A stretch of 47,953 nucleotides of DNA from Candidatus Gastranaerophilales bacterium (lineage in GTDB: Bacteria > Cyanobacteriota > Vampirovibrionia > Gastranaerophilales > Gastranaerophilaceae), in assembly GCA_947594025.1 (NCBI GenBank), contig CANQDZ010000007.1, positions 1 to 47,953 on the forward strand, written 5' to 3'. Under the pieces are notes generated by a model. The model saw only the letters and a list, made by a program, of their open reading frames with translations. It searched no databases and was not told the DNA's origin. Position 1 is the stretch's first letter. Each line of letters begins with the position of its first letter. Below, one piece after another: positions 4,701 to 42,783 of the stretch. A program made the position numbers and the translations under genes.

Positions 4701-5067
4701 TGGTCAAAGATTTGGTGAAATGGAAGTTTGGGCACTTGAAGCATACGGTGCTGCTTATACATTACAAGAAATGCTTACAATCAAATCCGATGATGTAAGC
4801 GGCAGATCTCGTGCTTATGAAGCAATTGTTAAAGGCGACAATATTCCACGTCCGGGAATTCCCGAATCATTCAAGGTATTGGTTCGTGAACTTCAATCTA
4901 TCGGATTGGATATTACCGTAGCTAAAAAAGGCGGCGAAGAAGTTGATTTGATGTCAGATAATGATGATTTAAGAAAATCTGCACCAAAGAGAGTTCTATC
5001 TGATATAGACAGTGAACTTTTAAACATCAATTTCTTTGATGAAAGCTCAACACTTTTTAAAGATTAG
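1750..5067 (+). CDS. rpoB: DNA-directed RNA polymerase subunit beta
   Basis: An 1105-residue RpoB, the length usual for cyanobacterial beta subunits and shorter than the E. coli protein. It forms one pincer of the polymerase and half of the active-site cleft. Seen: the rifampicin-pocket region [15 protein letters not shown] followed by SALGPGG, the [12 protein letters not shown] block, [14 protein letters not shown] near the catalytic face and the C-terminal [21 protein letters not shown] block. The rifampicin-region wording matches the cyanobacterial form. The ATG follows AGAGG with good spacing. First gene of a three-gene operon; rpoC1 starts 19 bases after the stop. No inactivating change was noticed. 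Confidence 0.98.
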
Positions 5068-5086
5068 AAAATAGGAGATTAGGAAA

Positions 5087-6802
5087 TTGTCAACCAGTAT
5101 AAATTATTTCGATTATATACGAATTTCAATAGCAAGTCCCGAACGCATATTGAAATGGTCTTACGGTGAGGTTACAAAACCTGAAACCATAAACTACCGT
5201 ACATTAAAACCCGAACGCGACGGTCTTTTTTGCGAAAGAATTTTTGGACCAACAAAAGACTGGGAATGTTATTGCGGTAAATATAAAAGAGTTCGTCACA
5301 AAGGTATTATTTGTGAACGCTGCGGCGTTGAAGTTACAGATTCAAAAGTAAGACGTCACAGAATGGGACACATTAAACTTGCGGCTCCCGTTAGCCATAT
5401 TTGGTTTTTAAAAGGAATTCCAAGTTATCTCGGATTATTACTTGATACGACATTAAAAGATTTAGAGCAAGTAATATACTTTAACGCTTATATGGTAGTT
5501 GACCCAGGTGATTCAGAATTCAAAAAAATGCAGCTTTTAACTGAAGAAGAATATGAAGATTATATTCTTGAGCATGAAGAAACAACATTAAGAGTCGGCA
5601 TTGGTGCTGAAGTTATTAAAGAACTTTTAAGCGAAATTAAACTTGATGAACTTGTAAACGAACTTAAGGCAGGTCTTGAATCCGCCGGAGGTTCCGTTCA
5701 AAAAAGAGCAAAACTTATTAAACGTTTAAGACTTGCAGAAAGTCTTCTAAGTTCAAATACCGAACCAAGCTGGTTTATTATGGATGTTTTACCCGTAACA
5801 CCGCCTGATTTACGTCCTATGGTTCAATTAGACGGCGGAAGATTTGCAACATCAGATTTGAACGATTTATACAGACGTGTAATTAACAGAAACAATCGTT
5901 TGTTAAGACTATTGGAAATGGGTGCACCCGAAATTATTGTAAGAAACGAAAAACGTATGCTGCAAGAAGCGGTTGATGCCCTTATTGATAACGGCAGACG
6001 AGGCAGAACGGTAGTCGGACCAAATAACAGACCTTTAAAATCGCTTTCTAATATCATTGAAGGTAAACAAGGTCGTTTCCGTCAAAACTTGCTTGGTAAA
6101 CGTGTTGACTACTCAGGTCGTTCAGTTATCGTTGTAGGTCCTCAATTGAAGTTAAATCAATGCGGTTTGCCAAAAGAAATGGCTATCGAATTATTCAAGC
6201 CGTTTGTTGTAAATAAATTGATTGAAAGAGGACTGGTTCAAAACATAAAATCAGCTAAGAAAAAGATTGAAAGATCAGAACCGGTTGTATGGGATATACT
6301 TGAAGAAGTTGTAGACGGTCATCCCGTTCTTCTAAACCGTGCTCCTACACTTCACAGATTAGGTATTCAGGCTTTTGAACCTACTCTTGTTGAAGGTCGT
6401 GCAATTCAATTACACCCGTTGGTATGTACAGCATTTAACGCCGATTTCGACGGCGACCAAATGGCTGTTCACGTACCATTGTCAATTGAAGCACAAACGG
6501 AAGCCAGAATGCTTATGCTTGCAACAAACAATATATTGGCTCCTGCAACAGGTAAACCGATAATTACTCCTTCACAGGATATGGTCTTAGGTATTTATTA
6601 CCTGACTATCTTGAAAAACCAAGATACGGAAATCAAAGGTTATTACCATGATTTCTTAGATGCAATATCCGCTCTTGAACTTGGAGTAATTAAATTGCAC
6701 GATAAAATTGTTGTAAGAGATGAAAACGGCGAAAGAATTGAAACGACAGTCGGAAGAATAGTTTTCAACGAAACAATCAGAAAATCTTTAGCCGCATCAT
6801 AA
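5087..6802 (+). CDS. rpoC1: RNA polymerase subunit gamma (N-terminal half of beta')
   Basis: 571 residues corresponding to the N-terminal part of bacterial beta'. Seen: the zinc ribbon [20 protein letters not shown] near residues 62-81, the [20 protein letters not shown] block, and the catalytic magnesium loop NADFDGDQM, whose three aspartates make the polymerase active centre. In most bacteria this is fused to the part encoded by rpoC2; separate genes are a cyanobacterial/plastid character. The start is TTG: it lies 9 bases after AGGAG, and the protein opening ([18 protein letters not shown]) is the normal family start. Slightly shorter than typical cyanobacterial RpoC1 (about 620), but ends in the expected [10 protein letters not shown] block. 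Confidence 0.97.
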
Positions 6803-6833
6803 ATTGAAAATAATAGTAAGGGAAATATAAAAA

Positions 6834-9800
6834 ATGACTACAATGACAAAGAATAAAAAGGTAATGCCTTTTATAAACGAAGTGGTAGATAAAAAAGGAT
6901 TAAATAAGCTGCTGGCTCAAGTTTATCTTGAAATGGGCGGGTCAAAAACAGCTTCTCTTGCAGATAACCTAAAAAATTTGGGTTATAAGTATGCAACAAA
7001 AGCAGGAACAACTATTTCAATTGAAGACTTGGACGTTCCAAAAGTTAAATCCGACTTATTAAAAGAAGCTCAAGACCAAATTGAAAAATCTAACCGTCGT
7101 TACATTAAAGGTGAAATTACAGAAGTTGAAAGATATACAAAGGTCATCGACACTTGGAGTGAAACAACTGCAAGACTTACGGAACAGGTTGTTAAAAACT
7201 TTGACAAATTAAACCCCGTATATATGATGGCATTCTCCGGAGCCCGCGGTAACTTATCTCAGGTTTCTCAGTTGGTTGGTATGCGTGGTTTGATGGCTGA
7301 CGCACAAGGTCAAATCATCGACTTACCTATTAAATCAAACTTTAAAGAAGGTCTTTCCGTTACAGAATACATTATTTCATCATACGGTGCAAGAAAAGGT
7401 CTTGTAGATACAGCGTTAAAAACAGCGGACTCAGGGTACTTAACAAGACGTCTTGTTGACGTTGCTCAAGATGTAATTGTCAGAGAAGAAGATTGCGGAA
7501 CAACACGTTCAATTAAAATGCAAGCTATCTTGGACGGTGAAGAAGTTATTGTACCGCTTAAAGCAAGACTTTTAGGCAGAACGGTTGCTCAAGATATTCT
7601 CGATAAAGAAGGAAACGTTGTAGTTCCTCGTAATAAAACAATAGACAGAGAAGATTTAGAAAAAATCGATAGTCTAAATCTTACATCCGTAGATATAAGA
7701 TCGCCGCTTACTTGCGGGCTTGAATTTGGTGTTTGCCAAAAATGTTACGGCTGGGCAATGACAACCCAAAAAATGGTTGATATCGGTGAAGCAATTGGTA
7801 CAATCGCCGCTCAATCAATCGGTGAACCCGGTACACAGCTTACAATGAGAACATTCCACACAGGCGGTGTATTCAAAGGCGCAGGCGCTATGCGTCAAGT
7901 AGTTGCTTTGTCTGACGGTGAAATCAAAACAAAAATTCAAACAAGAGAAGTCAGAACTCGTCACGGAGATATTGTTCAAGTTGCAATTAAAGAGGCTGAC
8001 CTTACCTTTGAAAGAAGGGGCAGAGAAGAAAAAGTCCACATCCCTGCAGGTGCAACTGTTTATGTTAAATTTGGCGATAAAGTAACAAAAGGACAAAAAC
8101 TTGCTGAATTTGAACCTGTAAGCTCAGGTCAAGGAAGCCGTTTAACCGAAAAAGCCACAAAGGATATTACATCTGATATTTCAGGTGAAGTTGTATACGG
8201 CGGTTTTACTGCTGATGAAAAGAAAGACCGTCAAGGCAACGTTTCAAGAATTGCGAACCGCTCAGGTATTGTTTGGGTATTGGGCGGTGACGTTTATACT
8301 CTCCCTGCAGGTTCTAAAATCCTTGTATCAGACGGACAAAAAATTAAACAAGGCGAAAAACTTGCAGAAACACTTATTGTGTCAGAGCACGGCGGTGAAG
8401 TTAGAGTTAACAACTCTCTTGAAATTGAAGAAACAAAATTTGAAGGTAAGAAAATTAAAAAGATTGTTGCCGGTAAAGAACTTACCATCGTTATTGCATC
8501 AATTCAACCTTCAAATGCCAAGTTTGAACAAACTAAGAAAGAACAATTCTGGACCGTTGATAAAACGGGTGAAAAATACATTGTTAAATGTCCTATTGAT
8601 ACAACAGTTGAAAACGGCATGATTATTGCCGAACTTATAGATGACGAATACAAGGTAACTTCATCAGGTGAAATTCGTTATAAAGGCATTGAAGTTGATG
8701 AAAATCAGGTCGTTACAAAAGGCGGTCAAGTTGTATTTATTCCCGAAGAAATACATCAAATTTCTAAGGATTCATCTTTAAAACTTGTTGAATCAGGCAC
8801 ATACGTTGAAGCAGGAACAGAAGTTGTTAAAGACCTATATACTCACATAGACGGTATTGTTGATATTAAAGAATTCAACGATATTATCCATGAAGTTGTT
8901 ATTCGCCCCGGTGAACTTTACACATTAGACAGCATTTCTGATCTTAAAGTTGACGAAGGTGAAGTGATTAAAGCAGGAACAACGGTTGCTAAGAAAATTA
9001 AAGCAAAAGTTGATTCTATCGTAACTATTGTTGAAAACGACAAAGACATGCTTGAGCTGGATGATATTGATGAAGAACTTAGCGACGATTTAAATGACGA
9101 AGAAGCAATTGATAAACAATCAATTCAAATTCTTGTCAGACCAATCCAAGCATTTGATATTCAACCAAAAGACGTTTCAATTAAATTTAACACAACCGAT
9201 GATGCAATTGAGATCGTTCCTCTAACTCAACTTCAATACAAAGATGGCGCAAGAGTTAGAAGCTTAGACGGTTCTGTTCTTACAAGAACAAGCTTAGTTC
9301 TTTCCATGAGCGGTTACTTAAGTCACTTAAAAGGTTTAGTTGAGCTTGATAAGAAGGGCGAATTAAAAGTAGTTGTTCTTGAAACATTGATTGTACGTCG
9401 TGAATCAGACGAAACATCAAAAACTATTTCTTCAACTCAAACTGAATTATTGGTTGAAAACGGTCAAATTATTGAACCAAAAACACCTGTTACAAAAACT
9501 CAGGTTCTTGCAATAAACAACTCTGTTGCAAGTATAAAAGATACTAAGAAGGATTTAAGACGTTTGCTTTTAATCTCTGAAAACAGTGAACAAAAGATTA
9601 ATCTTAAATCTAAACCGTCCGTTAAAAAAGGTGACTTTATCACATTAGATACGGTTATTTCAACAGGCGGCGAAGTTTCTGCAGTATCAGGTTTGGTTGT
9701 TGAAACAAGCGATAAATCAATCACCGTAAGAGTAGGTCATCCGCACTTAATCAGTGCAGGTACACTTCTTCAGGTTGATAATTCAGCCTTAATCCTAAGA

Positions 9801-10676
9801 GGCGACTTGCTAGCGACACTTGTCTTTGAAAGACAAAAAACAGGTGATATCGTTCAAGGTCTTCCAAGGGTTGAAGAATTGCTTGAAGCCAGAAAACCAA
9901 AGGATAGTGCAATTGTTGCAGAAGAAGACGGTACGATTGAAATTGAATACCATGAAGATGGTTCTCAATCATTGTTTGTTGTAAATGATAACGGCAGACA
10001 AGAAATAAAAGTTCCGATTGAAGCAACAATCATTGTTCTTGATAAACAAAAAATCCAAAAAGGTGATCCTTTAACGTCAGGTCCTTTGAACCCGCATGAT
10101 GTTATCAGGTTAAAAGGAGCATCCGCAGCGCAACAATATCTTGTTGATGAAGTACAAAGGGTATATCGTTCACAAGGTGTTGAAATTGCAGATAAACACG
10201 TTGAGGTTATTGTTCGTAAGATGATTAAGAAAATAAAAGTCATTGACTCAGGTACAACAAATCTTCTTGCGGGCGAACTTGTTGAAATCAAGGATATTGA
10301 AGCTGAAAATGAAAGAGTTTCAAAAATGGAAAATGGCGTTCCTGCAACTTACGAATACTTATTACTTGGTATTACAAAAGCCAGCTTGAACACGGAAAGC
10401 TTTATTTCAGCCGCATCATTCCAAGAAACAACAAGAATTTTAACCGAAGCTGCCGTTGAAGGCAAAAAGGATTTATTAAGAGGACTTAAAGAAAACATTA
10501 TTATCGGTCGTTTAATACCTGCAGGTACAGGATATTATCACTTAATAAATTCTGATGAAGAAAAAGAAAAAGAAGCTATCAAGAGAGCTCAACTTAAAAA
10601 TCAGGTTAGAAAACCGTCGGCTATCCTTGAAGAAATTGAAGGAATGTTTGGTTCTCCTGACTTTACAATAGAGTAA
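6834..10676 (+). CDS. rpoC2: RNA polymerase subunit beta' (C-terminal half), with large insertion
   Basis: 1280 residues forming the C-terminal part of beta'. Seen: the family opening, the cysteines C..SPLTCGLEFGVCQKC of the second zinc site, the trigger-loop block QSIGEPGTQLTMRTFHTGG at residues 327-345, and the downstream continuation GDIVQGLPRVEELLEARKPK from residue 1004. Between them lie about 650 residues rich in beta-strand repeats; this corresponds in position and size to the cyanobacterial SI3 insertion made of sandwich-barrel hybrid motifs. An acidic patch (LDDIDEELSDDLNDEEA) lies inside it. The gene follows rpoC1 by 31 bases with AAGGGA as ribosome binding site, and is followed by a strong terminator. 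Confidence 0.97.
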   Translation: MTTMTKNKKVMPFINEVVDKKGLNKLLAQVYLEMGGSKTASLADNLKNLGYKYATKAGTTISIEDLDVPKVKSDLLKEAQDQIEKSNRRYIKGEITEVERYTKVIDTWSETTARLTEQVVKNFDKLNPVYMMAFSGARGNLSQVSQLVGMRGLMADAQGQIIDLPIKSNFKEGLSVTEYIISSYGARKGLVDTALKTADSGYLTRRLVDVAQDVIVREEDCGTTRSIKMQAILDGEEVIVPLKARLLGRTVAQDILDKEGNVVVPRNKTIDREDLEKIDSLNLTSVDIRSPLTCGLEFGVCQKCYGWAMTTQKMVDIGEAIGTIAAQSIGEPGTQLTMRTFHTGGVFKGAGAMRQVVALSDGEIKTKIQTREVRTRHGDIVQVAIKEADLTFERRGREEKVHIPAGATVYVKFGDKVTKGQKLAEFEPVSSGQGSRLTEKATKDITSDISGEVVYGGFTADEKKDRQGNVSRIANRSGIVWVLGGDVYTLPAGSKILVSDGQKIKQGEKLAETLIVSEHGGEVRVNNSLEIEETKFEGKKIKKIVAGKELTIVIASIQPSNAKFEQTKKEQFWTVDKTGEKYIVKCPIDTTVENGMIIAELIDDEYKVTSSGEIRYKGIEVDENQVVTKGGQVVFIPEEIHQISKDSSLKLVESGTYVEAGTEVVKDLYTHIDGIVDIKEFNDIIHEVVIRPGELYTLDSISDLKVDEGEVIKAGTTVAKKIKAKVDSIVTIVENDKDMLELDDIDEELSDDLNDEEAIDKQSIQILVRPIQAFDIQPKDVSIKFNTTDDAIEIVPLTQLQYKDGARVRSLDGSVLTRTSLVLSMSGYLSHLKGLVELDKKGELKVVVLETLIVRRESDETSKTISSTQTELLVENGQIIEPKTPVTKTQVLAINNSVASIKDTKKDLRRLLLISENSEQKINLKSKPSVKKGDFITLDTVISTGGEVSAVSGLVVETSDKSITVRVGHPHLISAGTLLQVDNSALILRGDLLATLVFERQKTGDIVQGLPRVEELLEARKPKDSAIVAEEDGTIEIEYHEDGSQSLFVVNDNGRQEIKVPIEATIIVLDKQKIQKGDPLTSGPLNPHDVIRLKGASAAQQYLVDEVQRVYRSQGVEIADKHVEVIVRKMIKKIKVIDSGTTNLLAGELVEIKDIEAENERVSKMENGVPATYEYLLLGITKASLNTESFISAASFQETTRILTEAAVEGKKDLLRGLKENIIIGRLIPAGTGYYHLINSDEEKEKEAIKRAQLKNQVRKPSAILEEIEGMFGSPDFTIE

Positions 10677-11238: not shown

Positions 11239-11268
11239 AAAAAAGACTCTTAATTAAGAGCCTTTTTT
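11239..11268. terminator. Bidirectional terminator
   Basis: A palindromic core CTCTTAATTAAGAG (11247-11260) is flanked by an A-run on the left and a T-run on the right, so it works for the plus-strand gene ending at 11211 and for the minus-strand gene whose TAA stop (11254-11256) lies inside the hairpin. Confidence 0.8.
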
Positions 11269-11712
11269 ATTTTTGTTTTCAGAATGTCTGGCGTGTGATA
11301 TTCCGCCGGCACCGGCAGTCGTGGCGCCTACAGCCAGAGCGATATTTCTTAATGTTCTGCCTTTTTTACCGGAATTTTTAGTTATATCTTTTGAATCTTT
11401 AATAGACTTGGAAATATGTCTAAATAATTTTACAACATTATCTTTTATAAATTTGCCTGCTTTTGTTATGTATTCAGGTACTTGGCGTGCAAATCCCACA
11501 ATTTTTTTGGAGGCTTTTTCAGCAATCGGTTTAGCCTTTAAATAAACAGGTTTTACTATTTCAACAAGCTTGTCAGCCGCATTTTTACCTAAAATCTTTT
11601 GTGAAGCTTTCTTAACAGATGATACAGACAGCCCGCTAAAAGATATATTGTTTTGGCGAGGTACCTTTATCGGCTCCATCCCTATTCTGCTAATGTTTAT
11701 CGGTTTAATCAT
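11254..11712 (-). CDS. Unknown protein with N-terminal IN...SFSG signature
   Basis: 152 residues, very basic, no recognised domain. It opens MIKPIN and carries NISFSG at residues 22-27, a signature shared with two other proteins in the window (see findings). The middle has amphipathic Lys-rich helices (residues about 40-115). Near residues 121-136 there is a small Ala/Gly-rich hydrophobic stretch (IALAVGATTAGAGGI), possibly a weak membrane segment, followed by a polar tail. It lies 29 bases after the gene at 11742-12401 and ends in a terminator, so the two probably form one transcript. Function unknown; probably lineage-specific. Confidence 0.65.
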   Translation of the reverse strand: MIKPINISRIGMEPIKVPRQNNISFSGLSVSSVKKASQKILGKNAADKLVEIVKPVYLKAKPIAEKASKKIVGFARQVPEYITKAGKFIKDNVVKLFRHISKSIKDSKDITKNSGKKGRTLRNIALAVGATTAGAGGISHARHSENKNKKGS

Positions 11713-19611: not shown

Positions 19612-20492
19612 CCGATAAAGTCTTTAAAAGTTTCTCTTTGAAGCTGGGTATAGTTATTGTTAAACAGTGGTCGAGGAAGCGCAGCATTGTTTAGCTGTGT
19701 GTTCTTTTGGTGATTTTTTGTCGTTAATTTTTTATTTAATGCGGGAAGACCGAAGCCTATAAAGCTTACAACCAAGCCTAATGAACCTGCTTGAAACCAA
19801 GCGTTAACTCTTTTGCCTGCTTTTGTAAGAGGATTATTGATATCGGTTAATTTTTTAATCAAATTATTTACTTTGCCGTTTGTGTCTTTTTCGATTAATT
19901 CAATAATTTCTTTAGCGCCTTTACCTTTAATATCTCCCAAGGCTTCAGTTGTTACTTCGGAAAGCTCCCTATTCAGGTTCAAAGCTTTTGAAGGGTCACC
20001 GCCATTTTCACCCAAGAATTTAACAAGTTTTGTTAAATCTTCTTTTGATGTTATGTTGCCGTATTTTGAAGCAATTTGTTCACTTGACATTGCGGCAACA
20101 CCTGACGGTCTTATGTAGTCATAAAATTTAGAAAATATATTTTTGCAATTTTTAGTATTTGGGCCGTCTTTTGCAAGAACAAGTCCCGTAGGTTTTGTCA
20201 TAAGCTTTGAAAAACCTGCTTTTAAACCCTTCATTGCAAATAGGATTGTTAAAATTGTGATAGAATCACGAGTTAAGATTTCACGTCTTTCATCCGCGTC
20301 TCTTGCTTGAAGAATTCTCGGACCGATAACAGCTGACAATAATAAAGTGTTGAATGCTATCGTGTTCATGTTGAAACCGTCCGCTTCAAAGAACTTAGCA
20401 GCCTTTTGAAGTCCTTTTCCGGATTTCATATTTTGTCCTATTTGGGTGCAAGCCCTTCTTGCGCCGGTTGTTATTGCGGAAATTGCGCTCAT
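19608..20492 (-). CDS. Unknown protein with membrane segments
   Basis: 294 residues, not recognised. Hydrophobic stretches lie at about residues 43-60 (MNTIAFNTLLLSAVIGP), 76-92 (ITILTILFAMKGLKAGF) and 232-250 (GSLGLVVSFIGFGLPAL); the central part is polar and helical with Lys/Glu-rich turns. No signal peptide. It starts inside the end of the gene at 20489-21394 by a 4-base ATGA overlap, so the two are translated in sequence and probably work together. Ends tail-to-tail with the LapA-like gene, sharing TTAA. Likely lineage-specific. Confidence 0.65.
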   Translation of the reverse strand: MSAISAITTGARRACTQIGQNMKSGKGLQKAAKFFEADGFNMNTIAFNTLLLSAVIGPRILQARDADERREILTRDSITILTILFAMKGLKAGFSKLMTKPTGLVLAKDGPNTKNCKNIFSKFYDYIRPSGVAAMSSEQIASKYGNITSKEDLTKLVKFLGENGGDPSKALNLNRELSEVTTEALGDIKGKGAKEIIELIEKDTNGKVNNLIKKLTDINNPLTKAGKRVNAWFQAGSLGLVVSFIGFGLPALNKKLTTKNHQKNTQLNNAALPRPLFNNNYTQLQRETFKDFIG

Positions 20493-21394
20493 TGTTGTTT
20501 AACCTCCGCAACGTTATCTATTTCTGCTTCAGGGTTTGTTTTGCTTATGCTGTAAATTTTTGGAAGAATTACAAGAACAACGCCTGAAAGTAGAGTTAAT
20601 GCTACATTTGTTATAAATCTTGAACCTATTCTTAAATTTTTAAATTGCTCTATGTTTTTTGGAGCTTTTTTTGTAAAGTCGTCAGCATATTTTTTTACAT
20701 AAGTTATCAGCTTGCCGAATGCAACAGAGTTGTTTTCGCTAAGTTGTGCTGAAAGCAAGTCGTCTGATAAGTTTGAAACTTGTGTTTTTTTAATTTTTGA
20801 GAATTTATCAATTAAAGTTCCAAGTAATTCATCTTGACATGTACCGTTGCCTTTTGCAAACATACGTTTTAAAAAGTTTCTTTTTGGAGCATTTTCGATT
20901 TTGCAAACATCTTCCGTTATTTCTTTTGCAAAGTTTGAAAGTTCTTTATCCTTTAAGCCCATATTTTCGCCAACTCTTGTGAATACATCTTCATAGAACA
21001 CTTTACGGGCATTATTTTCAAAATTTGCATTTTGAGTTGATTTGCTGATTATATCACTCAGGTCTTTTATTGATTTAACGGGAATGTCGTTTGCCGTACC
21101 CGTGAGTTTTCTTGCAACCGCTTGAACCGCCATAGGCACAAGAAACATGCTTGTTCCGGTTAAGCTTTCTCTGAGGGCTGTTTCCGTTGCTGCTATATAG
21201 TTTAATTTGCCTGTTTTTTCTCTGTTTCTGTTTAAAGATGACACCGTTCTCGGTAAACCGCAAGCCGTAACATCCTGCACCATAAAATCAGCAGCTTTTC
21301 CGCCTCTTGCGATAGCGTCAAAGACTTTAACCAGTGCGTCCGAAACTCCTACACCTTTAAATGAAGTTGTGGTATTGTTTATGCTTCTAATCAT
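20489..21394 (-). CDS. Unknown protein with N-terminal IN...SFKG signature and C-terminal membrane helix
   Basis: 301 residues, no known domain. It opens MIRSINNTTTSFKG, the same IN then SF[K/S]G pattern as the proteins at 11254 and 34263. The body is helical and charged; hydrophobic stretches lie near residues 95-110 (GTSMFLVPMAVQAVA) and 260-285 (FITNVALTLLSGVVLVILPKIY), the latter a convincing membrane helix followed by an acidic tail. The start ATG has a weak AAGG 11 bases upstream. It is the first gene of a two-gene minus-strand unit. An AT-rich 140-bp gap separates it from the divergent gene at 21535; no clear promoter for this strand was identified. Confidence 0.65.
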   Translation of the reverse strand: MIRSINNTTTSFKGVGVSDALVKVFDAIARGGKAADFMVQDVTACGLPRTVSSLNRNREKTGKLNYIAATETALRESLTGTSMFLVPMAVQAVARKLTGTANDIPVKSIKDLSDIISKSTQNANFENNARKVFYEDVFTRVGENMGLKDKELSNFAKEITEDVCKIENAPKRNFLKRMFAKGNGTCQDELLGTLIDKFSKIKKTQVSNLSDDLLSAQLSENNSVAFGKLITYVKKYADDFTKKAPKNIEQFKNLRIGSRFITNVALTLLSGVVLVILPKIYSISKTNPEAEIDNVAEVKQQ

Positions 21395-33114: not shown

Positions 33115-34266
33115 TTGGCATATTCACTAAAGTATAAAAAATATATTGAAACCCCTGATTACACAAGGAATACTAACCCCCTGCGCGTTGTAGAAATGCC
33201 AAAAAGGAAAAAGACAGCTTCTAAAAAAAGAGGAAGTTTTCTTAGGAAATTTATACAAATTTCTTTTTTGACATCCATCTTTTATATGACTTTCCCGAGC
33301 AACTATGAAAATTTTATCAGACCAAATTTGGTTTCAAGAATTCAAAACAGAAGCATTCACTACGATACATCAATTCTTGTTGAACCTACTGCAAATTATT
33401 TGTCAAATGCAAGTATGTTTGGTAAAAATTTAAGAACCGTTTCCCCTAAAAATAAGGAAATGCTAAGCATTATTCCTGTCGGTGAGATACAAGGTTTGGA
33501 AGGTAAGCTTGCTCAATTGAGCAGCAAATATCCAAATCTTGAAGCTCACGTTTACGTATACGATTTTGAATCAGCCGCCAAGGCTTCATTTAACGGCGAA
33601 AAACCCGCTCCCGTTGCAAGTGCCGTTAAAATACCCATTCTGTTCGAGTTCTTTAGAAAAATAGATAAAAGTAATGGCGCACTCTCCATTAATCAAAACG
33701 TTTTATTTGAGGAATATCAAAAAACTTCAGGTTCGGGTCATATGCAATATAACGGTACAAACAGAGAATATTCCTTCGATAGAATTGCGGAGCTTATGAT
33801 AACCCAATCCGATAACAGCGCCACTAATATTATTCTTGACTACATCGGCGGAAAAGAGGCTTTGAATTCTGCATTCAGACGCTGGGGTTTAAATAATTCC
33901 ATAATGGGAAATTGGCTCCCTGATTTAAACGGAACAAACCAAATGAGCGCAAAAGACCTTGCAACCGTGTTGTATAACTATGATAATCCTAAATTCTTAA
34001 GTACTTCAAGCAGAGAATACATCAGAAAATATATGTCCAACTTGCCTACCCATAAGCTTATAAGAGCAGGTATTCCCGAAAACGCTTTATTGCTGCACAA
34101 GACAGGTGACATCAAAAGTTCACTTATAGACGCAGGTATAATTTATCTTCCAAACGGACATAAATATATATTATCCGTAATAGTTAAGCGCCCGAGTAAT
34201 GACCCCGGGGCGCGCAACTTGATTGAAGATATTTCAAAAACCGTTTACGAAACTATTAACCGCTAG
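33115..34266 (+). CDS. Membrane-anchored serine hydrolase of class A beta-lactamase fold, lacking the Glu166 equivalent
   Basis: 383 residues. A Lys/Arg-rich N-terminus and one membrane helix (about residues 46-62) anchor the enzyme. The catalytic domain shows SxxK (Ser169-Lys172, SAVK), SDN (232-234) and KTG (329-331) in correct order. The omega-loop reads NWLPDLN (W267-N272) where class A beta-lactamases have RWEPELN: the deacylating Glu is Leu268. It probably acts on peptidoglycan or is a slow penicillin-binding protein rather than a resistance enzyme. Start is TTG, supported by GAGGA five bases before. It shares CTAG with the stop of the convergent phosphohexomutase gene. Confidence 0.85.
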   Translation: MAYSLKYKKYIETPDYTRNTNPLRVVEMPKRKKTASKKRGSFLRKFIQISFLTSIFYMTFPSNYENFIRPNLVSRIQNRSIHYDTSILVEPTANYLSNASMFGKNLRTVSPKNKEMLSIIPVGEIQGLEGKLAQLSSKYPNLEAHVYVYDFESAAKASFNGEKPAPVASAVKIPILFEFFRKIDKSNGALSINQNVLFEEYQKTSGSGHMQYNGTNREYSFDRIAELMITQSDNSATNIILDYIGGKEALNSAFRRWGLNNSIMGNWLPDLNGTNQMSAKDLATVLYNYDNPKFLSTSSREYIRKYMSNLPTHKLIRAGIPENALLLHKTGDIKSSLIDAGIIYLPNGHKYILSVIVKRPSNDPGARNLIEDISKTVYETINR

Positions 34267-35966
34267 GCTTTAATTGTTCCGCCAATACCTTTTACGGTGT
34301 CAACCAAATAATTTTCAAGATATTTGCCCGTTTCTTCACTAACCGCATCTATATACAGTCTTAAAACGGGTTCCGTGCCGCTTTTTCTGACAAATACACA
34401 TGAACCGTCTTCAAGATAAAATTTTAAGCCGTCGCCGTTTGGTTTGTACTCTCTTAAATGAGCATCTACGCCGTGTGTTTTTGGGTAATCAATGTTCATG
34501 CCCGCAATTTTATCTTCATCGCCGTTGAAATATTTTTCGAAATACTTAACGGCATTTTCTTTTTCTTCTTCTGTTGCAAATTTCATATTTACACAGTTAG
34601 AATAATAATTTCCGCCAATGTTTGTATTTATTTCTTCTAAGATTTCGCCAATAGGTCTTTGTTCTGTTGCAACTAAATCAAGTAAGGTTGCAAGTGCAAG
34701 GTAGCCGTCTTTTTCCGGAATATGACCTCTGATTGTCAAGCCGCCGGATTCTTCACCTGCGACAATAACAGGTTTGTCGCTGTCTGAGATTTCAATCATT
34801 TTTCCGCCCAGGAATTTAAAACCTACGGGAGTTTGTTCAACTTCTATGTCATATCCTTGTTTGTTCATGTATTCCGCCATAGCATCAATTTTGTTTGATG
34901 TAGCATCATTTTTAATAATTGTGCCTGAAGTCATTCCTTTGTTTTTAATTAAATGATACGCGCATAACATAATCACATCAGGTGCCGTTATAAAGTTGCC
35001 GTTTTCATCAATTACGCCAAATCTGTCTGAATCACCGTCATTTGCTAAACCTATTTTTAAAGGATTATCTGACTTTTTAACTTCTTCTGCAAGATTTTGT
35101 AAGTTTTTAGAAACGGGATTTGGACCTTCCGCCTCAGAGCTTAGTTCCTTTTTAAGTTCAATGCCGTTATCCTTCATAAGTTTTGGGAAATAATATTTTC
35201 CTGTTCCGCCAAAATCTTCATAAAAGATATCTATTCCTGCATTTTTAATGTTTTCAAAATCAACAAAACCTTTTTCATCCAAATATTCTTTATAGATTTG
35301 ATAAGGGTCGATTGAAATCTTTTTGCCGACGTATTCCGTATCTTTTGGTTTAAATTCGCCCTCAGCAGTTATTCTTTCAAGTCTGTCCGCAAGAGGTTTT
35401 ACCGTTTTATCATCTGCAACTGAGCCTTCATCCGTTAAGAAGTTGTAACCGCCGTCACTCCATGGGTTGTGGCTTGCAGTAAGTAATACGGATAGGGGAA
35501 GTTCATATTCTTTTGTGATTAAAGCCAAGACGGGAGATGCAACGGGGCTTATTTCATTTGCCTGTGCGCCTTCAAGCTGCGGTATTATAACGTCTATCCC
35601 TTCTTTATTAAATATGTCCGTAATTTCAGGCGCATACTTTTGTGTTGCCTGTCTTGTATCACCACCAACAAGGGTTGTTGACTGTCCCTTATCCTGCATT
35701 TCTTCCGCAAGAGCATGAGTCATTGAGTATACAAATTGGTCGTTGAATTTCTCGCCGTATGTGGCACGATATCCGGAAGTTGAGGTTCTCAGTTTGTTTG
35801 CGGCTTCAGCCCCTTCTTGCTGTGATAATAATTTTGTGTCACGTCCCTTGAATGAAACTGTGTCATAGGGTAAATCTACCGTTCTGACTGAGCGTATTCC
35901 CATAAAAGACTGATTTTTGTAAAAACCCAATCTTAAAACTTGCGGATTAATTGCTTGAACTCTCAT
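34263..35966 (-). CDS. Phosphoglucomutase/phosphomannomutase family protein with N-terminal signature extension
   Basis: 567 residues. An alpha-D-phosphohexomutase interconverting hexose 1- and 6-phosphates for cell-wall, glycogen or capsule sugars. Seen: LRTSTSGYRATYG, the phosphoserine loop LLTASHNPWSDGG (Ser165), the metal loop DGDSDRFG, the sugar loop GEESGGL and the phosphate loop RKSGTEPVLRLY. All catalytic parts are present. Unusual: about 50 residues precede the normal start, and they carry NQSFMG (18-23) and TVSFKG (36-41) after an AIN opening, as in two unknown proteins here. The ATG has GGGAG upstream, so the extension is probably translated. Confidence 0.92.
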   Translation of the reverse strand: MRVQAINPQVLRLGFYKNQSFMGIRSVRTVDLPYDTVSFKGRDTKLLSQQEGAEAANKLRTSTSGYRATYGEKFNDQFVYSMTHALAEEMQDKGQSTTLVGGDTRQATQKYAPEITDIFNKEGIDVIIPQLEGAQANEISPVASPVLALITKEYELPLSVLLTASHNPWSDGGYNFLTDEGSVADDKTVKPLADRLERITAEGEFKPKDTEYVGKKISIDPYQIYKEYLDEKGFVDFENIKNAGIDIFYEDFGGTGKYYFPKLMKDNGIELKKELSSEAEGPNPVSKNLQNLAEEVKKSDNPLKIGLANDGDSDRFGVIDENGNFITAPDVIMLCAYHLIKNKGMTSGTIIKNDATSNKIDAMAEYMNKQGYDIEVEQTPVGFKFLGGKMIEISDSDKPVIVAGEESGGLTIRGHIPEKDGYLALATLLDLVATEQRPIGEILEEINTNIGGNYYSNCVNMKFATEEEKENAVKYFEKYFNGDEDKIAGMNIDYPKTHGVDAHLREYKPNGDGLKFYLEDGSCVFVRKSGTEPVLRLYIDAVSEETGKYLENYLVDTVKGIGGTIKA

Positions 35967-37124: not shown

Positions 37125-38444
37125 ATGTCTACACAGATTAATTATACAAATAATCTAGCATTTGCTCAGAAGGCAATAAGATATGTAAACGGTCAGGATT
37201 TAAAAGAGAAATCAGCAGGTCAGACCATTAAAGAAAGTTTGCCGAGCTCCGTCGGTACAGCCGCATTATTTGAGCTCGCTCCCGATGCAAGACGTGCATT
37301 AAAGTTTAAAGAACTTTTAAAAGACGGTGCTTTAACAAAAAATGAATACAAAGCAGCTATAACGGGTACCGTTAAGGATAGTGATACCATAAAGAAAATT
37401 GGTGATTACTTCGAAAAAAAAGCTTTGAATGATGGCGCACAAACAGCTGCGAAAAAATCCACCTCATTTACTAAAAAGATATTCAAAAATTTTGGAAAAA
37501 AATCTGCCGAAGGTGTTGCAAAAGAAGCAGTTAAAGAATCTGCTCAAGCTGCGGCAGCTAATGCAGGAAAAGAAGCTGTAGAATCCGCTGTAACTAAAGC
37601 AGGTGAAAAAGCCGTAAAATCTGCTACAAGCAAAGCGGCAACAAAAGTGGTTACCAAGGGTCTATTAGGAGAAATAAAAGGCTTCTTTCTATTTAATATG
37701 GCAACTCAATTACTTGAGATAATTCCCGCATTTAAGCGCGGAGGCTTCACAGAAGGTGTAAAACAAATAGGTAAATCCATCCTTAATTCAGCAGGCGACG
37801 CTATAGGATATACTGCAGGTATGAAGCTCGGTGCAGCAGCAGGTACGGCAATCGGCGGTCCTATCGGTACAATAGTCGGCGGTATTGCAGGTATGGTACT
37901 TGGCGGTATTGCTTCAACAATTGTCGGAAAAGGAATTTCAAAAATATTTGGTAAAAACTTTAACGAAAAAGAAGCAGAAGCACAAACAGAGGCTCAATCT
38001 CAAGAAATGGCTGCAGACCAAGCAACTATGCAGGAATTAAGCGAAGCTGTTGCTCAAAAGATTGCTGAAGACCAAGCAGACGGTAAAGTAAGCAAAGATA
38101 CGGAAGAAATGATAGCAGAGTTAGATAATTTCAAAAAATCAAACGTAAGCTTTGGAAATTTAACCAACAATCAGGTAAACAGCCAAGCTAATAATCAAAC
38201 TTATACTCAGCAAATTCAACCCGGAGTTTATCAAACAACAACTCAACCTATCACACCCCAAGCAACAACACAGCCTCAAACGATAAATGCAGTTGCAAAC
38301 GGTGTAAATATGGGCGTTAGAAATAATATTTTAAATCAGCAAGCACAAGGTATTTATGAAATAAATAATATTCCGAGAAATCCTGACGGCTCAATAGACC
38401 ACAGAATTTATAACGCCTCAGTTTATATTCCCAAAACAGTTTAA
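37125..38444 (+). CDS. Unknown Ala-rich protein with glycine-zipper membrane segment and Q/N/T-rich tail
   Basis: 439 residues. Region 1 (1-100) is polar and begins STQINYTNNLAF. Region 2 (about 105-180) is Ala/Lys/Glu-rich amphipathic helix with repeats such as KEAVKESAQAAA and AGEKAVKSA. Region 3 (about 222-270) contains repeated GxxxG (TAGMKLGAAAGTAIGG, GTIVGGIAGMVLGG), a glycine-zipper typical of membrane-inserting or oligomerising hairpins. Region 4 (280-335) is E/Q-rich, and region 5 (345-410) is rich in N, Q and T. The closing stretch is an NPDGSIDHRIYN block. Ribosome binding site AGAGGA. Function unknown; the design resembles membrane-active or surface proteins, but there is no signal peptide. 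Overlaps the convergent gene by 27 bases. Confidence 0.7.
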   Translation: MSTQINYTNNLAFAQKAIRYVNGQDLKEKSAGQTIKESLPSSVGTAALFELAPDARRALKFKELLKDGALTKNEYKAAITGTVKDSDTIKKIGDYFEKKALNDGAQTAAKKSTSFTKKIFKNFGKKSAEGVAKEAVKESAQAAAANAGKEAVESAVTKAGEKAVKSATSKAATKVVTKGLLGEIKGFFLFNMATQLLEIIPAFKRGGFTEGVKQIGKSILNSAGDAIGYTAGMKLGAAAGTAIGGPIGTIVGGIAGMVLGGIASTIVGKGISKIFGKNFNEKEAEAQTEAQSQEMAADQATMQELSEAVAQKIAEDQADGKVSKDTEEMIAELDNFKKSNVSFGNLTNNQVNSQANNQTYTQQIQPGVYQTTTQPITPQATTQPQTINAVANGVNMGVRNNILNQQAQGIYEINNIPRNPDGSIDHRIYNASVYIPKTV

Positions 38445-39089
38445 AAGACCGTCAACCAGAATATAACGACCAAGCGGAACGACTTCGGTATATTTGCTTA
38501 AGGATTTAAGAAAGCATTTATTTTCACAAAAACCACCTGAGATATAAAGTTTCTCGGGTGTTTTTGTAAAGTTAAAAGCGTTATATGCAATCCCATGGAT
38601 AAATTTTGAAATTGCTATATTTGCATCCATTCCATGTGATATGTCATCCATAATTTTTTCAAGTCCGAATATTCCGCACGTTATATTGTATTTTTCATCG
38701 ACCGGGCTTAAATCTTCAGCCTTTACGTTATAAAATTTTAAAAGCATTTCAATGGTTGCACCCGTTGCGGATGCACATGACGCATTCCAGTCCATATCTT
38801 GAAATTTATCATCTTTAAATTTTGCCCATTTAATATCTCTTGAGCCTAAATCAAGAACAATTCCGTTAGGTTTTATAATATTTTCACACCCTTTTACAAG
38901 TGAGACAACTTCATTTACATGTTCTTTTGAATTTATGTGGCTAAAATTGTGCCCCGTACTTTTTTCAAAGGTTATACATTTTATGTTTTTAAGCTTTGAA
39001 GAACGGATAATGGAATATTTTTTCTTGCCGTTATCTTCTTCTAAAATTTTTGACCAAGTCGTTCCTGCATCTAAAAAGAAATTACTCAT
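38418..39089 (-). CDS. Short BadF/BadG/HgdC-like ATPase (2-hydroxyacyl-CoA dehydratase activator type)
   Basis: 223 residues against about 260 for HgdC-type activators, which use ATP to drive low-potential electrons from a [4Fe-4S] cluster bridging two subunits. Seen: FLDAGTTWSK (phosphate 1 loop), VLDLGSRDIKWAKF (phosphate 2), ASCASATGAT with Cys105 and ITCGIFGLEK with Cys138 at the places of the two cluster ligands, and LYISGGFCEN (adenosine loop). The activator N-terminal region is shortened and the helix GxGR motif changed. Partner gene lies 23 bases upstream in the same direction. TAGAAT lies 6 bases before its ATG. Confidence 0.65.
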   Translation of the reverse strand: MSNFFLDAGTTWSKILEEDNGKKKYSIIRSSKLKNIKCITFEKSTGHNFSHINSKEHVNEVVSLVKGCENIIKPNGIVLDLGSRDIKWAKFKDDKFQDMDWNASCASATGATIEMLLKFYNVKAEDLSPVDEKYNITCGIFGLEKIMDDISHGMDANIAISKFIHGIAYNAFNFTKTPEKLYISGGFCENKCFLKSLSKYTEVVPLGRYILVDGLLNCFGNIN

Positions 39090-39112
39090 AAAGATATTCT
39101 ATCATAAAGAGT

Positions 39113-39841
39113 TTATCTTAACTTTATAAAGGCTTCAATTTTTGCTTTTATTGAATTATTTGCAAGTCCGTCTGCATCAACGTAAAGTCCGTTATATTTA
39201 TCTGCCAGATACTTTGCAAGCTGATTTTTGGCGCAAAATGTCTGCGCATAAAAAACGGTTGGAACATCCTTGTCCACATAAGATTCAAGCTCAAGGTCGG
39301 CAGGATAGTTTGCCTCAACGCATCTTAGCCAGCCGTAAACGTGTGTTTCATTTGGAAAAATATCAAGAATTGTCAGGTCATGCGGCGGAACACCCCAAAA
39401 ACCAAACTTTGGTTTGCATTCTTCATAGCTGCCTGTATTAGGGGTTATTATGCCCGATGTTATAAGGTTTATTTTTTCTTTTAAGGGTAGATTACTTTTA
39501 CTTATCGGAATTATTATTTCTCCGTTATTCCATTCCGCTTCATATTTTAATGTTTCAACTTCAAAACCGCAGTCTTTAAGTATTTTTGCTGCAAAAAAAC
39601 CGCTGTCACACTTATCTTTACCTATCGGAGCAAGTATTTTTATAATTCTGTTTTTCAGATAAAAAGCGTTATCAAAAATATTTTTTATAATTTTACAATA
39701 AGCATTAGGGGTGATTTTTGAATCGGGTGCTCCAATCGGCACATCCAAATCAATAAAATCCGCATTAGGATATTTTTCCTTGTTTTCCTTTACTATTTTG
39801 GGTTCTACATATCCCCAAAATCCTATTAAATCCTTGCTCAT
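39113..39841 (-). CDS. Unknown protein paired with the activator-like ATPase
   Basis: 242 residues from the ATG at 39841; a longer frame from a TTG at 39856 would run through the promoter. Not recognised. It has six scattered cysteines (in AYCK, DKCDSG, KDCGF, EECKPK, RCVEA and FCAKN), a Rossmann-like alternation of strands and helices, and a distinctive FGFWGVPPHDLTILDIFP block. Being directly upstream of the activator-like gene suggests it is its partner or target, in the place where dehydratase or double-cubane proteins normally sit, but it is much smaller than those. TATAAT six bases before the ATG suggests a leaderless mRNA. Confidence 0.6.
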   Translation of the reverse strand: MSKDLIGFWGYVEPKIVKENKEKYPNADFIDLDVPIGAPDSKITPNAYCKIIKNIFDNAFYLKNRIIKILAPIGKDKCDSGFFAAKILKDCGFEVETLKYEAEWNNGEIIIPISKSNLPLKEKINLITSGIITPNTGSYEECKPKFGFWGVPPHDLTILDIFPNETHVYGWLRCVEANYPADLELESYVDKDVPTVFYAQTFCAKNQLAKYLADKYNGLYVDADGLANNSIKAKIEAFIKLR

Positions 39842-39852: not shown

Positions 39853-39861
39853 ACAATAAAT

Positions 39862-42735
39862 TTACGCAAGTGAGAAAATGTCATATATTTCATCATCAGA
39901 CAACTCCGTAATAATTTTTTCTCCGACAAATATGGTGCTGTCTGCTAAATCTCTTTTATCTTTAATGATTTTATCAATTTTTTCTTCAAATGTTGATAGC
40001 GTTATAAATCTGTGTACCATAACATTTTTATCCTGACCTATACGATAGGTTCTATCGGTTGCCTGATCTTCAACCGCGGGGTTCCACCATAAATCGTAGT
40101 GAATAACATTGCTTGCCGGAGTTAAATTTAGTCCTAATCCGCCCGCCTTTAAAGAAAGTATCATTATTTTTTTGTCTTTGTCTTCTTCAAACTGCTTTAT
40201 TATTGTATCTCTTGACTTAACGTTTAAAGAGCCGTGGAAGAATAAGGGGTCAATGTCATATTCGTTTGCAACGATATTTGTTAAAATGTCGCCCATTTGT
40301 TTGTACTGCGTAAATATTAAAACTTTTTCGTCATTTTCAATGATATTATTTAAAATTGAAATTAACTTTTGCGTTTTACCGCTTGCATTTTGGCTCATAT
40401 CTCCATGTTTTAGGTAGTGATAAGGGTGATTGCAAACTTGTTTTAGGCAGGTAATAAGCTTGAATATTGCGCCTCGTCTGTTTATTGTTGCTTTTGAATT
40501 TGAAATTTCTTCCATGGATGATTGAAGCACTTTTTCATACAAAAGAGCCTGATTTTTAGTTAAATAACAGTATTCGTCAAGCACGATTTTTTCAGGTAAG
40601 TCTGAAATGATTGTTTTATCGGTTTTTAAACGTCTTAACATGAAAGGCGAAATTGCCTTTTTAAGCTTCTCTATTCGTGTTGTTTCTTTGAATTTCTCAA
40701 TAGGGATTGCGTAATTTTTGCCAAAATCCGTTACAGTGCCCAAATAGCCTTTATTTACGAAGTCAAATATACTCCACAGTTCATTTAATCTGTTTTCAAT
40801 CGGAGTACCTGTCATTGCAACTTTCATATTTGCCTTAATTGCTTTAACTGCTTGAGTTTGTGAAGTCGTCGGATTTTTGATGTTTTGCGCTTCATCTATT
40901 ACTAAAATATCCCACTCATACTTTTTGAATTGCTCGGCATCTATTCTTAAAATCGCATAAGTTGTTAAAATTGCATCGCAATCCATAGAAAATTCTCTGT
41001 CTATTCCATGGTATTTAAAGACATTCATAGAAGGTGCAAACATCTTAAACTCGCGCTCCCAGTTGCCTAAAAGTGTTGTTGGGCAAACAACGAGAGCGGG
41101 TTTTTTAATTTTCTTTTCTTCCTTAAGTTTTAAAATAAGGCTTATAACCTGAATTGTTTTACCAAGTCCCATGTCATCCGCTATACAGCAGCCAAAACCT
41201 TTTATGATATTTGTGTAAAGCCATTTGTATCCGACGACCTGATAAGGACGAAGAACGCCGTTTAAATCTTTTGGAATTTCAATGTCTTCAACCTTTGTGA
41301 AGTCGCTGATGATTTTTGCAAAAGCTTCATCGTAATCAAAATCGTAATCTTCAATTTTACCCGATAGCGCATAGTGCAAAAGTTTCATCTTGTTCATGAC
41401 AAGATTTGGTTTTTTCTTTAATCTTTCTAATAATTTGTCTGTTTCTTCTTTGTCTATAAGAATATATTTGTCTTTATACTTAATTAAACCGTTAGAATTT
41501 TTTGCCAGTTTTTGAAATTCTTCTGCACTTATTTTTTCATCTTCACCAAGCGATATTTCTATTGAAAAATCCATTAACTGATCAAGCGAGATAATGGAAT
41601 TATCTGCAAAATCAAGCAGTGATTTAATTTCTGCCATTCTTTTTTCTTTAATTTTTGCATTAATTGAAGCGCGGGGAACGATGATATTGTTCATTCCTTC
41701 CGGCAGATTAACCTCCATGCCTGCTTGAGCCAAATAATATGAAATCTGAGTGACAAGCTTGTATACACCTGCCAAATCAAGCTCCATAGTGATATCTTCA
41801 AGGTCTTCTATATATTTTGTTGCCCAATTTATTTGTTTTTCAATAATTGTTTGTTCAAATTCCGTCAATTTATCAAAAGGAACAACCTCATTTGTCTTTT
41901 TATTTTTTGCAAGAACTCTTAAAAGAAATTTGTCTTCTCCGTTTTCTTCAATGTTAAATATCGGCACTATTTCATAGCTTCCGAGAGCCATTTCGTCCAG
42001 CCATGTTTGAATATCGACAGCTAAGTCAACGCTTCTTATATATCTTTTATTTGGAGCTCGCTTGATGAAATATGAAGCGGATTTTAAATCCGCAAATTTA
42101 TACGCTTTTATGTTTAAAAACGTAAAAATCATATAATTCAGATATTTATCTATAATTTCTTTTGTTGTTTGAACATCAAGATAATCATTTTCTATAATGC
42201 TTTTATATGCATTTAAATAATCTTTATTGTTAAAATAAGGCTCATATACTATAGTGAACGCTTCTTTACCCATTTTAACCGTCGGAATAAAGTTTAATTT
42301 TTCAATTGTTTTTTTGACAAATTGAACAAGTGTATGATAAAAAAGATATTCGTCGCTTACTTCAATATGTAAATTTTCTTCTACGCCTGCAAAATACTCA
42401 AAGAGAAGGTTTGTTGTAATTAAATAGCCGTACTTATCCCCTCTGTATACAGGTTTTAATCTGTACAAAGAGCCCTTTGATTTCAAATAGTATTCAAAAT
42501 TATAAGGAGGAGTTATAAAAAACATCCCCTCGGGCCGGTCATTTAAATATTTAATACCGGTATCTCTTAAGATGGTATTTTTGGTGTCAAAAGTATCCGC
42601 AAATTCTTCTTCTATAAGTTCATATATTAAAGACACCGAAAATCTAAAATCCTTATTTTTCTGACTTTCAGGGTTTGAATCCAAATTTAATAATAACTTC
42701 TCTATATTATTCTTCTTAAACGTAATATTACTCAT
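39862..42735 (-). CDS. SNF2-family helicase-like ATPase
   Basis: 957 residues. The C-terminal half is a full SNF2/RapA-type motor: DDMGLGKTIQ (Lys526), VIDEAQNIKNP (DEAQ at 614-617), MTGTPIENRLNELWSIFDF, KVLIFTQYKQMGD, SLKAGGLGLNLTPA and DQATDRTYRIGQ. The first 450 residues are not recognised; they lack the SWIM zinc cluster seen in some bacterial members. Such enzymes move on double-stranded DNA to remodel bound proteins, for example recycling RNA polymerase. I use the ATG of SNITFKK (42735); the longer frame from a GTG at 42762 includes a TATAAT. It lies just upstream of the activase pair on the same strand, possibly cotranscribed. Confidence 0.92.
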   Translation of the reverse strand: MSNITFKKNNIEKLLLNLDSNPESQKNKDFRFSVSLIYELIEEEFADTFDTKNTILRDTGIKYLNDRPEGMFFITPPYNFEYYLKSKGSLYRLKPVYRGDKYGYLITTNLLFEYFAGVEENLHIEVSDEYLFYHTLVQFVKKTIEKLNFIPTVKMGKEAFTIVYEPYFNNKDYLNAYKSIIENDYLDVQTTKEIIDKYLNYMIFTFLNIKAYKFADLKSASYFIKRAPNKRYIRSVDLAVDIQTWLDEMALGSYEIVPIFNIEENGEDKFLLRVLAKNKKTNEVVPFDKLTEFEQTIIEKQINWATKYIEDLEDITMELDLAGVYKLVTQISYYLAQAGMEVNLPEGMNNIIVPRASINAKIKEKRMAEIKSLLDFADNSIISLDQLMDFSIEISLGEDEKISAEEFQKLAKNSNGLIKYKDKYILIDKEETDKLLERLKKKPNLVMNKMKLLHYALSGKIEDYDFDYDEAFAKIISDFTKVEDIEIPKDLNGVLRPYQVVGYKWLYTNIIKGFGCCIADDMGLGKTIQVISLILKLKEEKKIKKPALVVCPTTLLGNWEREFKMFAPSMNVFKYHGIDREFSMDCDAILTTYAILRIDAEQFKKYEWDILVIDEAQNIKNPTTSQTQAVKAIKANMKVAMTGTPIENRLNELWSIFDFVNKGYLGTVTDFGKNYAIPIEKFKETTRIEKLKKAISPFMLRRLKTDKTIISDLPEKIVLDEYCYLTKNQALLYEKVLQSSMEEISNSKATINRRGAIFKLITCLKQVCNHPYHYLKHGDMSQNASGKTQKLISILNNIIENDEKVLIFTQYKQMGDILTNIVANEYDIDPLFFHGSLNVKSRDTIIKQFEEDKDKKIMILSLKAGGLGLNLTPASNVIHYDLWWNPAVEDQATDRTYRIGQDKNVMVHRFITLSTFEEKIDKIIKDKRDLADSTIFVGEKIITELSDDEIYDIFSLA

Positions 42736-42783
42736 ATTAGATACATTATACAATAAATACACCGAGTGCGAATATTTTTTTGA

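Follow-up and report, generated by a model that had tools for sequence, protein, structure and literature searches.

A miniature activator ATPase and its small partner in Gastranaerophilales, a likely minimal variant of the ATP-driven [4Fe-4S] reductases

ATP-driven electron injection, besides nitrogenase-type systems, is the main biological route to extreme reduction potentials. The closest described relatives of the locus analysed here are the 2-hydroxyacyl-CoA dehydratases (HADs), the benzoyl-CoA reductases (BCRs) and the double-cubane protein DCCP. In the catalytic subunits of this family two α/β domains of four parallel strands meet at the cluster site, with an intermediate three-helix CoA-channel domain (PMC11971306). 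The double-cubane ligands of BzdN are Cys36, 73, 100, 263, 293 and 327, of which Cys73, Cys100 and Cys327 are placed at helices 74–85, 103–113 and 327–343 (PMC11971306). In the literature searched, no paper was found that links Melainabacteria or Gastranaerophilales to activators of this kind.

The window, that is the whole stretch of 47,953 nucleotides analysed, belongs to a Gastranaerophilales-type genome and carries a gene pair on its minus strand. A small activator ATPase of 223 residues (38418–39089) is assigned to the ASKHA fold and the HgdC/DCCP-R type from its profile, AlphaFold model and cysteine conservation. Its partner (39113–39841, 242 residues from an ATG) resembles a miniature HGD-D/DCCP-type subunit, as judged from AlphaFold, VIA structural alignment, cysteine conservation and its register with DCCP; an alternative TTG start at 39856 would give 247 residues. 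The two genes are separated by 23 bases (39090–39112), where most relatives have a 4-bp overlap instead. These coordinates agree with the initial annotation, which had described two reading frames of these lengths with the partner 23 bases upstream of the activator.

A gene for a SNF2-family helicase (39862–42762, minus strand) ends 20 bases before the partner gene begins and is probably co-transcribed with the pair here. It adjoins the partner in only four of 80 loci (the best 80 of 397 matches) and was dropped as a member of the system. Elsewhere in the window, RNA polymerase β′ is encoded by two adjacent genes (5087–10676, plus strand; 571 and 1280 residues). Cyanobacteria have a split rpoC1/rpoC2, which this arrangement resembles, and it thus fits the taxonomy of the window. 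A short S-F-[KS]-G motif is also found near the N-termini of several unrelated window proteins (NNISFSGL, TTTSFKGVG and DTVSFKGRD; 11254–11712, 20489–21394 and 34263–35966, all minus strand), one of them phosphoglucomutase-like, and is possibly a lineage-specific N-terminal signal.

The activator is the more readily recognised of the two proteins. Its family profile matches HgdC (1hux, 1e-15), the 2-hydroxyisocaproyl-CoA dehydratase activator HadI (4eht, 1e-12), DCCP-R (7yyl, 7e-10) and MbdQ (3e-9), with MbdP also among the matches. The ATP-loop motifs DAGTTWSK, DLGSRDxK and SGGF are invariant or nearly so among the homologues, all 83 of which also have Cys105 and Cys138. In the alignment the two correspond to the cluster cysteines of HgdC and DCCP-R. 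Cys105 (codon 38775–38777, minus strand), in the motif DWNxSCASxTG, stands opposite NDKCAAGTG of HgdC and DCCP-R, and Cys138 (codon 38676–38678, minus strand), in the motif TCGIFGLEKIMDD, opposite STCTVFAESEV of HgdC. The ATP loops and the two cysteines had been picked out from the window protein at the outset. An additional CxxxC (38514–38528, minus strand), formed by Cys188 (83/83) and Cys192 (82/83), lies within the SGGFCENKC nucleotide motif; the aligned stretch of HgdC has no counterpart to it.

The AlphaFold model of the activator (pLDDT 91.5, with confidence falling at residues 104–106, the Cys105 loop, and at the C-terminus) displays an ASKHA fold with the activator ATP loops. It superposes best on DCCP-R (Z 21.9, rmsd 2.6 Å, 218 residues aligned), followed by MbdQ, HadI and HgdC (Z 20–21), with pantothenate kinase behind at 17.6. 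Each subunit has, by sequence, the two cysteines expected for a bridging [4Fe-4S], and by analogy the activator is probably a homodimer in which Cys105 and Cys138 of both subunits together hold one such cluster. The protein nevertheless scores under the curated cut-offs, with 50.3 against 125.4 bits for TIGR00241 and 14.7 against 31.5 bits for PF01869. On these scores it is a divergent subfamily of the HgdC/DCCP-R-type activators and is not filed as a TIGR00241 member. The low scores, together with the presence of type II pantothenate kinase and EutJ among the similar folds, would also suit a kinase-like or scaffold ASKHA protein that lacks a cluster and whose pairing serves something else. 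This is very improbable, as Cys105 and Cys138 are conserved throughout the 83 homologues in alignment with cluster cysteines, and the best structural matches are activators (Z 20–22) rather than the kinase. The label "miniature" is apt insofar as 223 residues fall under the 243 of DCCP-R and the ~270 of HgdC, but the shortening is mild and relatives range from roughly 215 to 250 residues.

The partner is far less evident from its sequence, and nothing reliable was returned for it in Pfam, NCBIfam or PDB sequence searches. A PUB domain scored 20.8 bits where the cut-off is 34.3, shikimate kinase came up in 13 of 34 relatives (best 0.006) and a designed helical barrel reached E 2.3; all three were taken as chance matches. 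The PF06050 profile gave no match to the window protein and hit one of 34 relatives at E 0.22, while NCBIfam, including the double-cubane equivalog NF040772, gave none. Alignment of the partner family with hhalign yielded nothing against a DUF2229 alignment and the C-terminal end only against three HGD-D proteins.

The six cysteines and the FGFWGVPPHD block reported for the partner are both present, with only three of the cysteines invariant. These are Cys49, Cys78 and Cys203 (82/82); Cys174 is found in 74 of the 82 relatives, and Cys91 and Cys142 are not conserved. FGFWGVPP[HN]D is a conserved block of the partner family, and in the window FGFWGVPPHDL (39374–39406, minus strand) covers the first strand and following loop of the second predicted α/β domain, opposite the DCCP region RILITGTPQPIP. 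With no structural input, a profile alignment sets Cys49, Cys78 and Cys203 opposite LPRNLC, TTCDG and QFC of DCCP, and the C-terminal AKIEAF opposite TRIEAF, so that a RIEAF signature is common to both. When the partner was compared with DCCP relatives, the score was reached by three of 100 shuffles over the full length, which is weak, by none of 100 for the C-terminal domain and by 34 of 100 for the N-terminal domain, which is not significant. The family link of the partner hence rests mainly on its predicted fold. The stretch around Cys174 aligns near the EETCIGER motif of DCCP and DDQCSGSR of BzdN; its absence from eight of 82 relatives makes an essential role as ligand unlikely. For the remaining distal double-cubane ligands no counterparts turned up in the partner, which has three invariant cysteines plus Cys174 rather than the six required for an [8Fe-9S] cluster.

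The AlphaFold model of the partner (pLDDT 91.2, pTM 0.83) points clearly to one fold. With VIA-align, the nine best entries are all 2-hydroxyisocaproyl-CoA dehydratase, benzoyl-CoA or 3-methylbenzoyl-CoA reductase, or DCCP (Z 11.2–13.4 over 227–232 of 242 residues, rmsd 3.6–4.4 Å), and the next fold reaches 6.6 over 86 residues. Foldseek gives E-values of 5e-7 to 1e-5 for MbdN and DCCP, with all others above 1e-3. Two α/β domains are predicted (~1–99 and 145–242), each of four parallel strands and meeting at the putative cluster site. The intermediate three-helix CoA-channel domain is replaced in the model by a short linker (99–145) with a single helix at 120–129. Cys49, Cys78 and Cys203 are modelled where helices 50–61, 79–90 and 205–215 begin, or just ahead of them, as in BzdN. 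Sequence and model together thus place three cysteines in strand-helix linkers where they could hold a cubane, and a [4Fe-4S] held by Cys49, Cys78 and Cys203 is predicted. The catalytic Glu65 and His131 of BzdO have no evident counterpart. The acceptor had been called unrecognised and new; it indeed has no match in sequence databases, but its predicted fold is that of a reduced dehydratase, benzoyl-CoA reductase or double-cubane subunit, and on this model it is not a new kind of acceptor protein. Identity with TudS (DUF523), a single small domain without an ATPase partner, was rejected given the two-domain model and the constant presence of the activator. TudS is not in the structural match list of the partner, though the two may still be similar.

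The two genes are closely tied in their distribution. Among 99 related genomes, partner and activator are each present in 51, leaving out weak cross-hits to full-size activators; both occur in 50, the partner alone in one, the activator alone in one and neither in 47 (Fisher 5e-26, with phylogeny and kinship ignored). In the two single-gene genomes the exceptions sit near contig ends. Within the genome_contigs collection, for the best 80 of 397 confirmed matches, the activator lies directly downstream of the partner in 69 loci, with a 4-bp overlap in 50, and 10 of the remaining 11 genomes encode it elsewhere or on another contig. The genes are therefore not separate in most genomes. In four of the 50 paired relatives the two are on different contigs, so the pair is retained together even when physically apart.

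The distribution is also patchy. Of 386 genomes sampled across the phylum, 73 have the partner, almost all of them in Gastranaerophilales. The same adjacent pair, with all motifs and 45% (partner) and 37% (activator) identity, is found in one outlying genome of another class (G108) and is absent from the other genomes among the 18 of that class searched. Over the genomes covered, which include the best 80 of 397 matches, the pair was met in Gastranaerophilales and this one outlier. A tblastn search of plasmids and phages with the partner gave no match. In one genus (g7) some species have the partner and others lack it, and in another (g24) the two genes are unlinked; this suggests repeated loss or transfer rather than strictly vertical inheritance.

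In G108 the pair (4265–5384, minus strand) is followed by opposite-strand genes for a NifU-type scaffold and a class-V aminotransferase (NifS/IscS-like). Around the pair in general, no third conserved neighbour gene was found in the best 80 of 397 loci. The lack of such a neighbour and of a known substrate pocket, along with the NifU/NifS-type genes of G108, would agree with an electron-delivery or cluster-handling module that acts on a third protein, for instance by activating another Fe-S or corrinoid enzyme. We regard this as improbable: NifU/NifS-type neighbours were seen only once, and on the other strand, and a cubane with one open iron would, by analogy with the family, speak for catalysis by the partner itself.

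The normal dehydratase subunits had been described as absent, which is true of the locus but not of the genome. A full-size activator is encoded on contig 3 (188 bits for TIGR00241) and four DUF2229 proteins, most with an HGD-D C-terminal signature, on contigs 43 (two), 11 and 2. These DUF2229/HGD-D-like proteins have 343–412 residues and a DUF2229 domain that was not found in the small partner; they are probably its distant relatives, and the miniature pair is separate from this full-size set. Two of them belong to a compact four-gene run on contig 43 (1605–5982), in which a DUF2229/HGD-D-like gene, a PHP-like gene (HSMFSDGTGD), a second DUF2229/HGD-D-like gene and a radical-SAM-like gene (CNCDCDFC) follow one another. 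This run is possibly another ATP-driven reductase cluster that uses the full-size activator of contig 3.

The conserved pairing and co-occurrence of the two genes, the homology of the activator and the predicted folds make it likely that the two proteins are the components of a minimal ATP-driven [4Fe-4S] reductase that represents a variant of the DCCP/BCR/HAD family. Family precedent suggests how clusters, dimers and complex would work together. The activator dimer, with its one bridging [4Fe-4S], would take an electron from ferredoxin or flavodoxin, bind ATP and dock on the partner. It would then deliver single electrons of very low potential to the [4Fe-4S] at Cys49, Cys78 and Cys203 of the partner, probably a homodimer. 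One iron of this cluster would be open to a small ligand or substrate, and the partner would reduce a small molecule or reductively trigger its reaction. As the helical domain is missing, the usual CoA-thioester site is absent, which argues against CoA-thioester substrates.

By analogy with the dehydratases, an electron might instead start a reaction that is non-redox overall. The fold alone is no proof of chemistry: the HADs of this family carry out a reaction without net redox change, and the three-Cys [4Fe-4S] of TudS works without electrons (PMC10611767). The partner could in that case be a Lewis-acid [4Fe-4S] enzyme, dehydratase- or desulfidase-like, that ATP and the activator only prime or occasionally repair when its cluster is oxidised, as in 2-hydroxyacyl-CoA dehydratases. 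HADs have the same fold and a three-Cys [4Fe-4S]-OH2 site and are formally non-redox (PMC11971306), the three-Cys cluster of TudS is a sulfide acceptor (PMC10611767), and the partner conserves three plus one cysteines. However, TudS needs no ATPase partner, whereas here the partner keeps its activator throughout, also where the two genes are unlinked, and there is no CoA-channel domain of the sort on which HADs rely. This non-redox role is accordingly considered unlikely.

The fold, invariant cysteines and near-perfect co-occurrence support well the idea of two paired proteins that use ATP to inject electrons into a small acceptor. This much of the original proposal stands, but the architecture is a known one in minimal form rather than an undescribed one. 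More tentatively, and slightly on the doubtful side, the pair may be the smallest known ATP-driven low-potential [4Fe-4S] reductase, acting without CoA binding on a small-molecule substrate; the CxxxC of Cys188 and Cys192 might then provide the activator with a further metal or redox site. If the reductase reading is true, a 242-residue acceptor and a 223-residue activator would reveal the smallest core with which the family can work, and should be simpler to express and engineer than dehydratases or benzoyl-CoA reductases. They would also indicate a so far unrecognised reduction in the gut bacteria that form the sister line of cyanobacteria and are for the most part uncultured.

Of the known systems, HadBC/HadI and HgdAB/HgdC (3o3m-o, 4eht, 1hux) share the fold of the partner (Z 11.2–12.9) and activator (Z 20–21), the ATP loops and both activator cysteines. 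The pair differs in its single small subunit, without a CoA-binding part or a surrounding fermentation operon. The Bzd/Mbd-type class I benzoyl-CoA reductases (8s02, 9g87, 9gai) have the same two α/β domains (Z 12.7–12.8), and BzdO has a three-Cys cubane site as predicted for the partner. They have, however, two subunit genes of ~375–447 residues per subunit and a CoA-channel helical domain, in contrast to one gene of 242 residues without this domain and with no aromatic-degradation genes nearby. TudS carries a [4Fe-4S] on three cysteines with a free iron and is described as partly related to the BCR/HAD family (PMC11971306, PMC10611767), but is a monomer of about 17.6–18.5 kDa without the ATPase that the miniature pair has.

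The two-gene logic of the pair is shared with DCCP:DCCP-R (6eno, 7yyl, 7yzm), and DCCP is the best match of the partner model (Z 13.4, 231 residues aligned, rmsd 4.4 Å), tied with others of the family. At 242 against 421–422 residues, the catalytic subunit is ~60% of the usual size, and it lacks both the intermediate helical domain and the full set of six double-cubane cysteines. According to the model, the partner is closer to DCCP as regards the lost CoA-thioester site, but with a single cubane. The predicted fold, the cysteines and the constant pairing with an activator are thus found, whereas the CoA-channel domain, the double-cubane ligands and scores above curated cut-offs are not; hence the pair is said to work like DCCP and the dehydratase-type ATP-driven reductases, not to be a member of HGD-D. 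The pair has no family name in the libraries searched and is a conserved minimal version of a known machine.
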